A stretch of 64,000 nt of DNA from Gloeobacter morelensis MG652769 (GTDB lineage Bacteria; Cyanobacteriota; Cyanobacteriia; Gloeobacterales; Gloeobacteraceae): assembly GCF_021018745.1 (NCBI RefSeq), contig NZ_CP063845.1, forward strand, positions 3,844,001 through 3,908,000. The letters are read 5' to 3'. Below, one piece after another: positions 36,417 through 40,518 of this stretch (positions are counted from its first letter, which is position 1; every line of letters starts with the position of its first letter). Both the position numbers and the translations under genes were made by a program. The notes beneath the pieces were generated by a model, which saw only the letters and a program-made list of their open reading frames with translations, did no database searches and had not been told where the DNA came from.

Positions 36417-38321
36417 ATGAGGTTACGATTTCGCTCTGCGACAGTGCATTATCTTGCTGAATTTGACGTCGTCGTCGTCGGCGCCGGCCACAGCGGCTGC
36501 GAAGCGGCCCTCGCCTCCGCTCGCCTCGGCTGTCGAACACTCCTGATCACCATGAACCTCGACACGATCGCCTGGCAACCCTGCAATCCGGCGGTGGGCG
36601 GCCCGGCCAAGTCGCAGCTGGTTCACGAGGTCGATGCCCTCGGCGGTGAGATGGCCAAAATCACCGACCGTACCTATTTGCAAAAACGCGTCCTCAATAG
36701 TTCCCGCGGACCGGCAGTCTGGGCGCTGCGGGCGCAGACTGACAAGCGCGAGTATGCCCGCGAGATGAAGCAGGTGCTCGAAACCACCCCCAACCTCACC
36801 CTGCGCCAGGGGCAGATTACCGACATTCACCTGGGCCCTCACGACGAAATTTGCGGCGTCAGCACGTTTTTTGATGTGCACTTTGCCTGTCGGGCGGTGA
36901 TCTTGACCACCGGCACGTTTTTGGGCGGGCGCATCTGGATTGGCCGCAGGTCGATGAGCGCCGGGCGGGCAGGCGAATTTGCTGCGGAGGGTTTGACTGC
37001 GACCCTGGAGCGATTGGGTTTTGAGACCGGGCGGCTCAAGACGGGCACCCCCGCCCGCGTCGATCGGCGCACGGTCGATTTTGGCGTTATGGAGGCGCAG
37101 CCGCCCGATCCCGAGTTGCGCTGGTTCTCGTTCGATCCGCGCGCCTGGGTGGAGCGCGAGCAGCTCAATTGCTATCTGACGCGCACTACCGCTGCGACCC
37201 ACCAAGTGATCCGCGACAATCTGCACCTCTCGCCAATGTATAGCGGCGACATCGACGCACGTGGGCCGCGCTATTGTCCTAGCATCGAGGACAAGATTGT
37301 CCGCTTCGCCGACAAAGAAAGCCACCAGATTTTCATCGAGCCGGAGGGCCGCGATACCCCCGAACTCTACGTCCAGGGCTTTTCGACCTCGCTGCCGGAG
37401 GCTGTCCAAATTGCGATGCTGCGCACCCTACCGGGCCTGGAAGCGTGTGCCGTACTGCGGCCCGCCTACGCGGTCGAGTACGACTACCTGCCTGCCACCC
37501 AGTGCCATCCGACCCTGATGACCAAGCGGGTGGAGGGGCTTTTTTGCGCCGGGCAGATCAACGGCACCACCGGTTACGAGGAGGCTGCCGCCCAGGGGAT
37601 CGTAGCGGGGATCAACGCTGCGCGCCTGGTGCGCGGCGAAGCGCTCGTGATCTTGCCCCGCGAGGGCTCCTACGTCGGCACGCTCATCGACGATCTGGTC
37701 ACCAAGGAGATCCGCGAGCCGTACCGGATGCTCACCAGCCGCTCGGAATATCGCCTGGTGCTGCGCTCCGACAACGCCGACCGGCGGCTGACCCCTTTAG
37801 GCCGCGAGATCGGCCTGGTGGACAACGAGCGCTGGGGGTTGTACCAGCAAAAAATCGCCGCGATTAGCTGCGAGCGCCAACGCCTGGAGACGACGCGCCT
37901 CAATGCCCGCGATCTGCCTGTCCACCTCGCCGCCAAACCAGGATCGATCACCCTGGCGGACCTGCTACGTCGGCCGGGGTTGCACTACGGCGATCTAGAG
38001 AGTCTGAATCAGGCGGCCCTCCTCGATGCGCAGGTGCGCGAGGGCGTCGAAATTGAAGTGAAATACAGCGGCTACATCGAGCGCCAGAACGAGCAAATTG
38101 AACGGGTGAGCGCCCAACACGCCCGGGCGATCCCCGCCGATCTCGACTACGAGCGGCTGAGCACCCTCTCCAAAGAATCCCGCGAGAAATTAAACCGAAT
38201 GCGCCCCCAGACCATCGGCCAGGCCAGCCGCATCGGTGGGGTGAGCCCGGCGGATGTCAGCGCGCTTTTGGTATATCTGGAACTAGCTCAGGCTGGGCGT
38301 TTGACCCCTGCTGCCCTCTGA
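36417..38321 (+). CDS. mnmG: tRNA uridine-5-carboxymethylaminomethyl modification enzyme MnmG
   Basis: MnmG (GidA) with MnmE modifies U34 in the tRNA wobble position using FAD. The dinucleotide motif '[23 protein letters not shown]' starts near residue 16. '[23 protein letters not shown]', '[17 protein letters not shown]', 'LTTGTFLGG' and 'LKTGTPAR' follow in order. The helical C-terminal domain ends '[22 protein letters not shown]'. The length of 634 is normal. The ATG at 36417 has no strong ribosome site; the GTG at 36444 is an alternative. Two small-RNA loci and trxA follow. Confidence 0.95.
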
Positions 38322-38346
38322 AATGTGGAGAAAGACTACCGTGGGG

Positions 38347-38375
38347 TTTACAGACTATGCTGCTCGTCGTATACT
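38347..38375 (+). promoter_or_regulatory. Strong sigma70-type promoter of the upstream small RNA
   Basis: TTTACA at 38347-38352 and TATACT at 38370-38375 are separated by exactly 17 bases. Transcription would begin near 38382, where no ORF follows before a terminator at 38401-38450. Confidence 0.65.
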
Positions 38376-38381
38376 TCAGGA

Positions 38382-38450
38382 CTAGTGAGGGGTGAATGGA
38401 AGAAGGGCTCAGGACGAAACGCGGACAGTCCTGCAGCCCTTCTTTATTTT
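38382..38450 (+). ncRNA. Candidate small RNA complementary to Yfr1
   Basis: A near-consensus promoter and a strong terminator hairpin bracket about 69 bases with no ORF. The hairpin pairs AGAAGGGCT (38401-38409) with AGCCCTTCT (38435-38443), and CAGGAC with GTCCTG inside, followed by TTATTTT. The predicted unpaired 5' end, 38385-38402, reads GTGAGGGGTGAATGGAAG. It can pair with 38507-38524 of Yfr1 over all 18 positions (15 Watson-Crick, 3 G-U). This suggests an antisense regulator of Yfr1 encoded directly upstream on the same strand. Expression is not shown by sequence alone. Confidence 0.55.
38401..38450 (+). terminator. Terminator hairpin of the upstream small RNA
   Basis: A long stem (nine plus six pairs, one bulged C) with a 12-base loop is followed by TTATTTT. 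It separates the candidate small RNA from the Yfr1 promoter. Confidence 0.75.
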
Positions 38451-38459
38451 GGAAGATTT

Positions 38460-38486
38460 TTGAATGGGTCGGGCATCGCATAGAAT
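38460..38486 (+). promoter_or_regulatory. Putative Yfr1 promoter
   Basis: TTGAAT (38460-38465) and TAGAAT (38481-38486) lie 15 bases apart, slightly short of the optimum. They would place the start at about 38490-38493, at the base of the first Yfr1 stem. Confidence 0.45.
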
Positions 38487-38489
38487 GAA

Positions 38490-38560
38490 GGAAGCGGAGA
38501 CGCATGTTTCCGTTCACTCCTCACACCATGTTCCGCCCGGTCGCTCCGGGCGGTTTCTTT
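38490..38560 (+). ncRNA. yfr1: Yfr1 small regulatory RNA
   Basis: Yfr1 is a cyanobacterial small RNA of about 55-70 nt with two stem-loops around an invariant single-stranded ACTCCTCACAC, present here at 38516-38526. Upstream, GGAA/TTCC and GCG/CGC (38490-38511) can form the first stem with a GAGA loop. Downstream, CCGCCCGG (38533-38540) pairs with CCGGGCGG (38546-38553), followed by TTTCTTT. The location just before trxA is the classic Yfr1 site. In other cyanobacteria Yfr1 pairs with mRNAs of outer-membrane proteins. The 5' end is an estimate. Confidence 0.88.
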
Positions 38561-38649
38561 GTGCCGGGGCCTTGATCCCCGCTGCGGGCGCAGGCCGAAG
38601 GCCCATGGTACACTGAAGAAAAACCCTTGTATCAGGAGCACCATCAGAT

Positions 38650-38982
38650 ATGTCAGCTGCAGTGCCGGTTGGTGATTCGAACTTCAAAACCGAAGTTCTC
38701 GACAGCGAATTGCCAGTGCTGGTCGATTTTTGGGCTCCCTGGTGCGGGCCGTGCCGCATGGTGGCGCCGGTGGTCGACGAGATTGCCCAGCAGTACAGTG
38801 GCAAACTCAAGGTGGTCAAGGTCAACACCGACGAAAATCCCCAGGTGGCAAGCCAGTACGGCATCCGTAGCATTCCGACGCTGATGGTCTTTAAGTCCGG
38901 CTCCAAGGTGGACATGGTCGTCGGTGCCGTTCCGAAGACGACGCTGGCCACTACCCTCGAAAAGCATATCGATATCAAATAG
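38650..38982 (+). CDS. trxA: Thioredoxin
   Basis: This is a 110-residue dithiol reductant with the active site '[15 protein letters not shown]' near residue 30 and the cis-proline loop '[13 protein letters not shown]' near 75. It is a standard m-type TrxA. In cyanobacteria it reduces Calvin-cycle enzymes and CP12, whose gene is also in this window. AGGAG precedes the ATG. It ends 12 bp before the carboxyltransferase gene, so both may share a transcript. Confidence 0.96.
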
Positions 38983-38994
38983 CGCAGGTGTGCT

Positions 38995-40518
38995 TTGACC
39001 TCCATTGCAGTTGATCCCCACAGCGAGTGGCAACTATCGACCGGGTCTACTGCCCGGGTTGGCGTCACCGACACCACCTTTCGCGACGCCCACCAGTCGC
39101 TTTTAGCCACGCGCATGACCACAGCCCAGATGCTGCCGGTCGCGTCGCGGATGAACCGCATCGGTTTTCATTCGATGGAGGTCTGGGGCGGCGCCACCTT
39201 CGACGCCTGCATCCGGTTTTTGGGCGAAGATCCGTGGGAGCGTCTGAAAGTTCTGCGCCGCGAGATGCCCGACACCCGCCTGCAAATGCTGGTGCGCGGA
39301 CAGAACTTGCTCGGTTACCGCCATTATCCCGACGACATCGTCGAGCGATTCATTCGCCGCTCTGTGGCCAACGGCATCGATATCATCCGCACCTTCGACG
39401 CCCTCAACGACGTGCGCAACATGCGCAAAACGATCGAGACGGGCAAGGAGTGCGGTGCCCACGTGCAGGGCACCCTAGTCTACACCGTGAGCCCCGTGCA
39501 CGACCTTGATCATTACACGGCGGTTGCCCGTGACCTGGTGGCTTTGGGTATCGACTCGCTGTGCATCAAGGACATGGCGGGCCTGCTGAAGCCTGACGCC
39601 GCCGGCCGCCTCGTGCGCGCTCTGCGCCCGGTGGTGGGTACCCTGCCTATCCAGATGCACGCCCATTCGCTCTCGGGTATGGCCTCAATGGCGTACTGGG
39701 AAGCCATCCAGATGGGGGCCAACGCCGTCGACACGGCCATTTCGCCCCTGGCCCTAGGATCGAGCCAGCCGGCCACCGAGACGATGGTGGTGGTACTGCG
39801 CGATACGCCCTTCGACACGGGCCTCGACATCGACGCTCTAGTCGACGTGGCTGAATCTATTGAGCGCATCTTCCGCGACGCGGGCAACGCCCCGATTCGC
39901 CAGACGATCATCGACACGCGCGTCCTCTCGCACCAGGTGCCCGGCGGCATGATCACCAACTTGCTCGCCCAACTCGACCAGCAGCGCGCTTCGCATCGCC
40001 TTCAGGAGGTGCTGCGCGAATTGCCGCGGGTGCGCGCCGATTTTGGCTATCCGCCCCTGGTCACCCCCACCAGTCAGATCGTGGGCACCCAGGCGGTGCT
40101 CAACGTGCTGATGGGCGAGCGCTACAAGATTATCCCGGCTGAGGCGTGCGACTATCTCTTGGGGCGCTACGGCCGCCCGCCCCACCCGATCGCCGAGTAT
40201 CTGTTCGAGCGCGTCTCCGCAGGCCAACAACCGATCACCCACCGACCCGCCGACGATCTCGAACCGGGTTGGGAGCCAGCGCTGGCCGAAAGTGCACCCT
40301 GGGCCGGTTCGGAGGAAGATGTGCTCACCTATGCGATGTTTCCGCAGGTGGCCACCAACTACTTCAAAGCCCGGGCGCGCAAGCTTTCCGGCGAGCGTCG
40401 GCCCTTCCCGGTCGCACTGCATCAGGTGAACGAAGTGGTACGCGGTTTTGCCGAGGCGACTGCCCTCGATCGCTTTGAGTGCGAAGTGAACGGTCTGCGC
40501 CTTCGACTGGTCCGCTAA
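38995..40518 (+). CDS. Carboxyltransferase subunit (pyruvate carboxylase B/OadA type), no biotin domain
   Basis: The 507-residue protein has the PYC/OADA catalytic barrel: 'VGVTDTTFRDAHQSLLATRM' near residue 20, 'MEVWGGATFDACIRFLGEDPWERL' near 60, 'LLGYRHYPDDIV' near 105, the carboxyl-lysine motif 'CIKDMAGLL' near 187, and 'VDTAISPLALGSSQPATE'. The metal-site motif, usually HxHDTSG, reads 'HAHSLSG'. The barrel-associated domain follows to the end, but no lysine-bearing biotinyl domain is present, so a separate carrier would be needed. The start is TTG at 38995; no ATG lies before the conserved region. Confidence 0.82.
   Translation: MTSIAVDPHSEWQLSTGSTARVGVTDTTFRDAHQSLLATRMTTAQMLPVASRMNRIGFHSMEVWGGATFDACIRFLGEDPWERLKVLRREMPDTRLQMLVRGQNLLGYRHYPDDIVERFIRRSVANGIDIIRTFDALNDVRNMRKTIETGKECGAHVQGTLVYTVSPVHDLDHYTAVARDLVALGIDSLCIKDMAGLLKPDAAGRLVRALRPVVGTLPIQMHAHSLSGMASMAYWEAIQMGANAVDTAISPLALGSSQPATETMVVVLRDTPFDTGLDIDALVDVAESIERIFRDAGNAPIRQTIIDTRVLSHQVPGGMITNLLAQLDQQRASHRLQEVLRELPRVRADFGYPPLVTPTSQIVGTQAVLNVLMGERYKIIPAEACDYLLGRYGRPPHPIAEYLFERVSAGQQPITHRPADDLEPGWEPALAESAPWAGSEEDVLTYAMFPQVATNYFKARARKLSGERRPFPVALHQVNEVVRGFAEATALDRFECEVNGLRLRLVR

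Follow-up and report, generated by a model that had tools for sequence, protein, structure and literature searches.

A putative divergent Yfr2 (Cyano-1) RNA directly upstream of Yfr1 in Gloeobacter morelensis

Two RNA units between mnmG and trxA

In the 64,000-nucleotide stretch of the Gloeobacter morelensis genome analysed here (the window), the interval between mnmG (36417–38321, + strand; NCBIfam TIGR00136, 880 bits) and trxA (38650–38982, + strand; NCBIfam TIGR01068, 139 bits) holds two promoter-hairpin units, both on the + strand. As the first-pass annotation had recognised, the second is the small RNA Yfr1 (38494–38555, + strand), which is matched by RF01116 at 59 bits against a gathering score of 38 and preceded by a -10 box, TAGAAT (38481–38486, + strand), that is kept in the Gloeobacteraceae. 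A weak Yfr1-like match of 18.8 bits also occurs on a second contig, likely a plasmid (G000:C2:21000–21047, where G000 is taken to be G. morelensis). In what is taken to be the G. violaceus PCC 7421 genome, the gene upstream of the pair likewise reads as mnmG (L013, 1630–3066). For that genome, trpE is named as the upstream neighbour of Yfr1 in Table 2 of PMC2190773, a study that included Northern blotting of G. violaceus Yfr1.

The first unit corresponds to a predicted transcript of 69 nt (38382–38450, + strand), separated from Yfr1 by 43 nt on the same strand. Its promoter, TTTACA and TATACT spaced by 17 nt (38347–38375, + strand), had been read from the sequence beforehand and was recovered by a scan as the sole sigma-70-like site in 37900–39200, where 0.4 were expected. 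Folding of the predicted RNA (-28.7 kcal/mol, z -4.1) gives a 17-nt unpaired leader containing the tail GUGAGGGGUGAAUG (38385–38398, + strand), followed by a terminator-like hairpin of 17 pairs (38399–38445, + strand) with a single 3′ bulge at 38434 and a 12-nt terminal loop, GAAACGCGGACA (38416–38427, + strand). The hairpin, earlier described as a strong terminator, is absent from the terminator-scan list, the loop limit of the scan being 8 and the loop here 12 nt.

Assignment to the Yfr2 family

The best Rfam family for 38382–38450 is RF01701 (Cyano-1), matched over its full length at 21.2 bits; this lies well below the gathering score of 41 and counts against Yfr2 identity. Matches to microRNA families in Rfam were discarded as chance hairpins. 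A profile search of the G. morelensis genome with RF01701 left the element unlisted even at E 10, so that this route alone would have given "no Yfr2 in Gloeobacter"; the same profile matches 208 of 242 Cyanobacteriia genomes and has no match in any of the six Gloeobacteraceae. With RF01701, copies of this kind from other cyanobacteria reach 37–47 bits and straddle the threshold, and the Rfam cut-off therefore splits the Yfr2 family. RF01701 has four places in the genome taken as Prochlorococcus MED4 (G159). Three of them adjoin the coordinates published for Yfr10, Yfr12 and Yfr18, which neighbour Yfr2, Yfr4 and Yfr5, and this supports equating RF01701 with the Yfr2 family.

A model built from 26 Yfr2 sequences of other orders, with no Gloeobacterales included (R1), finds the element as its sole match in the G. 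morelensis genome (38.7 bits, E 3.1e-4). Its best match in each of the other five Gloeobacteraceae lies at the orthologous place, with E values of 1.2e-5 to 3.1e-4 over all six, and neither R1 nor the pattern GTGTGAGGAGT found a canonical Yfr2 elsewhere in the G. morelensis genome. Three Yfr2 hallmarks are present, namely an unpaired GUGAGG tail, a 12-nt GAAAC..GG loop and a long stem. The conserved unpaired 5′ region of about 8–13 nt complementary to Yfr1 (GUGUGAGGAG) occurs as GUGAGGGGUGAAUG, unpaired and Yfr1-pairable, and the 12-nt conserved loop on a long stem (PMC2662882) differs by one base from that of ordinary Yfr2 (GAAACGCGGACA versus GAAACACGGACA). The Yfr2 bulge at -4 from the loop is absent, the sole bulge lying on the 3′ side six pairs from the loop, which counts against the assignment; since that bulge was described in 8 sequences (PMC2662882) and is not a strict criterion, the element is still filed in the Yfr2 family. 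On these features, 38382–38450 is best classed as a divergent copy of Yfr2 (Cyano-1), a known cyanobacterial RNA.

The middle closing pair of the element is A-U, as compared with U-A in most R1 members. R3, a model made from GAC/GUC-type copies with Gloeobacterales left out, scores the element at 40.9 bits, hardly above the 38.7 bits of the ordinary-type R1; a division into two Yfr2 subtypes would therefore rest on the closing pair and the missing linker, and is not proven. R2, a further model assembled from six copies of Gloeobacterales origin, finds matches in 213 of 242 genomes, and the examples inspected are Yfr2 copies near the Rfam cut-off. Several genomes of one genus (g28, family f25) show no RF01701 match and an R2 match at about 2e-6, so the Rfam Cyano-1 model, which misses divergent members, probably overlooks Yfr2 beyond Gloeobacter as well. 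A draft genome of 94% completeness (G008) has Yfr2-like matches, but RF01116 finds no Yfr1 in it; a single exact copy of the Yfr1 motif ACTCCTCACAC is present (C290:6539–6549), without the usual two hairpins.

Predicted pairing with Yfr1 and its conservation

The tract 38385–38402 differs from the exact complement of Yfr1 38507–38524 at three positions, all of which yield G-U pairs, and the longest run is 18, in keeping with the original observation at this locus. Eleven of these pairs (38385–38395 with 38514–38524, + strand, the single-stranded Yfr1 segment facing the tail) join bases unpaired in both predicted folds. The unpaired 5′ end had been drawn as 38385–38402; folding confirms this for 38385–38398 and places 38399–38402 in the hairpin stem. 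As 38507–38513 are likewise part of the Yfr1 5′ stem, the remaining pairs of the 18 would need strand invasion.

With opening costs included and helices restricted to those without gaps, the best pairing between the two RNAs is -17.6 kcal/mol. None of 400 whole-RNA shuffles (mean -2.9, sd 2.25) reached this energy or an 18-pair run, and none of 400 Yfr1 shuffles (mean -6.5) reached the energy. Three of 400 tail-only shuffles (mean -5.3) did so, and conservation is therefore stronger evidence than energy. Among 1600 segments of the 64-kb stretch, a better value was obtained only for Yfr1's own complementary strand, and across the 5.1 Mb genome the G-U-aware 15-mer GTGRGGRGTGRRYGG is confined to this RNA and Yfr1's own complement. 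The Gloeobacter value is ordinary among 21 other Yfr2/Yfr1 pairs, which range from -14.4 to -17.8 kcal/mol. The MED4 copy tried gave -5.6 under the gapless scheme; pairing there needs a bulge, and the figure is hence no benchmark for a validated pair.

The Yfr2-like unit lies upstream of Yfr1 in all six Gloeobacteraceae genomes, which span three genera and include those taken to be G. morelensis, G. violaceus PCC 7421 (G005) and G. kilaueensis (G003). The tail reads GUGAGGGGUGAAUGG, except that one genome (G006) has GUGAGGAGUGAAUGG, swapping a G-U for an A-U pair; the loop GAAACGCGGACA is identical in 6/6, and both TTTACA and TATACT are kept throughout. In two sister-family genomes (G001, presumably Anthocerotibacter, and G002) a related copy is found at another locus and not beside Yfr1, which counts against the decoy reading set out below; these copies retain TTTACA with TATACT or TATGAT and largely keep the tail, and both genomes also carry ordinary Yfr2. 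Loss of the complementarity in relatives that keep Yfr1, named at the outset as a possible refutation, was thus not seen in these eight genomes.

The stem covaries, whereas the tail, the promoter and the 12-nt loop stay conserved. Of the 17 consensus pairs of the stem, 15 show two-sided changes, and pairing holds in 94.8% of cells, compared with 37–56% when the alignment is slid (26 distinct sequences; the alignment had been adjusted to the structure, which biases these figures in its favour). In the tail, columns 6–11 and 14–16 are Yfr1-pairable in 27/27 sequences and column 12 in 14/27. The longer tract is broken by a C.A mismatch in genomes outside Gloeobacterales and the g10 family, which leaves only about 10 pairs as general and is a further point against the decoy reading. 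Taken together, energy, uniqueness and conservation in relatives make a small RNA predicted to pair with the target-binding motif of Yfr1 well supported.

The Yfr2-Yfr1 tandem and its likely role

Among the matches listed, 12 of 92 genomes have an R2 match no more than 5 kb from Yfr1, always upstream on the same strand at 107–186 nt start to start; these genomes are the six Gloeobacteraceae and six of genus g10. A seventh tandem genome (G111) belongs to the same family as g10 and one member of that family (G102) is without the tandem, giving 7/8 for the second family. The tandem was found in 0/80 other genomes compared, among the matches listed, where weak copies beside Yfr1 could be missed, and in 74 genomes every RF01701 place listed is more than 5 kb away from Yfr1. 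In 11 genomes of a picocyanobacterial family (g7, Prochlorococcus-like), an RF01701 copy lies about 28–34 kb from Yfr1 on the same strand. The second tandem family is probably Thermostichaceae, with G012 and G082 taken to be Synechococcus JA-2-3B'a and JA-3-3Ab. In PMC2190773, ligA and clpX flank Yfr1 in the strains called A' and B', so that both groups share the tandem in spite of different flanking genes.

This distribution is most simply read as an ancestral tandem; convergence or transfer may instead have produced it. It is conceivable, at rather less than even confidence, that the last common ancestor of living cyanobacteria had a yfr2-yfr1 tandem in which RNA and decoy were co-inherited, that the arrangement was kept in Gloeobacteraceae and Thermostichaceae while yfr2 was scattered and multiplied elsewhere, and that from that copy descends a Yfr2 subtype marked by its GAC/GUC closing stem and in part missed by the Rfam cut-off. 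The Yfr1/Yfr2 logic may be as old as living cyanobacteria, and adjacency would allow RNA and decoy to be moved or deleted together.

PMC2518516 had already suggested that the tails of Yfr2–5 pair with the Yfr1 motif. In work on Prochlorococcus MED4, Yfr1 and Yfr10 were both recovered in pull-downs with Yfr2; Yfr2 also keeps Yfr1 from binding ppa, brings back the expression of a reporter that Yfr1 represses in E. coli, and is no longer cleaved by RNase E once Yfr1 or Yfr10 is bound (PMC6778093). Given these findings and a Gloeobacter pairing energy like that of the 21 other pairs, the element is taken as a Yfr1 decoy. With family membership, conservation, base-pairing potential and tandem position established above, 38382–38450 is very probably the Gloeobacter Yfr2: it would be made from its own promoter and end at its own hairpin, its unpaired 5′ tail would pair with the CUCCUCAC centre of Yfr1, the product of the next gene on the same strand, and as a decoy or sponge it would keep Yfr1 off its mRNA targets, the conserved loop serving as a second contact site. 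That the RNA is transcribed in Gloeobacter, binds Yfr1 inside the cell and lifts its repression is carried over from Prochlorococcus by analogy.

That a Yfr2 family member acts mainly by binding mRNAs or protein through the GAAAC..GG loop, with Yfr1 pairing secondary, appears unlikely but deserves consideration, for the loop is the most constant part of the RNA, 302 mRNAs are bound by Yfr2 in MED4 (PMC6778093) and GGA motifs resemble RsmA sites (PMC2662882); the Yfr1-pairable tail core (columns 6–11) in every sequence and an adjacency kept in two families of different orders speak for the decoy instead. Read-through of both RNAs as one precursor, with intramolecular pairing setting Yfr1 activity at processing, is improbable: the shared strand, the 43-nt gap and a 270-nt Yfr10-Yfr2 precursor reported in MED4 (PMC2518516) would suit it, but the two RNAs have separate conserved promoter boxes, and between them stands a terminator-like hairpin. 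An unrelated RNA or terminator with complementarity by chance, to which the low Rfam score and the 3/400 tail-only shuffles might point, is scarcely credible: R1 matches the element in each of the six Gloeobacteraceae, the unit is conserved in relatives and the pattern is unique genome-wide.

The sponge or antisense partner of Yfr1 envisaged by the first-pass annotation is probably right but not new. Its remark that no such partner had been described is mistaken, as PMC2518516 put forward the Yfr1 complementarity of the Yfr2/Cyano-1 family and PMC6778093 demonstrated it; the family, the Yfr1 partner and their interaction are already known. New are the Gloeobacter Yfr2 copy, unless already included in Gierga et al. 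2009 (RNA Biol 6:222), the Yfr2-Yfr1 adjacency in two early-branching groups and the closing-stem variant, which extend the RNA pair to the earliest-branching cyanobacterial family.

Compared with the Yfr2 family (RF01701; Yfr2a-c in Synechocystis, Yfr2–5 in Prochlorococcus MED4), the Gloeobacter RNA shares the unpaired 5′ tail complementary to Yfr1, the 12-nt loop and the long stem. It differs in its closing stem (GAC/GUC, against GUC/GAC or GUG/CAC in R1 members), in having no linker before the stem, in a tail match that extends past the usual motif, in adjoining Yfr1 and in scoring below the Rfam cut-off. RNA sponges of other bacteria are small RNAs that titrate another small RNA by pairing; the logic is the same, but they are non-homologous. 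Further parallels are Yfr10-Yfr2, Yfr12-Yfr4 and Yfr18-Yfr5 in MED4 (PMC2518516), where a Yfr2-type RNA likewise lies beside an RNA with a complementary Yfr1 motif on the same strand, but the RNA that carries the motif in those pairs is one other than Yfr1 and comes first, as with Yfr10 before Yfr2.
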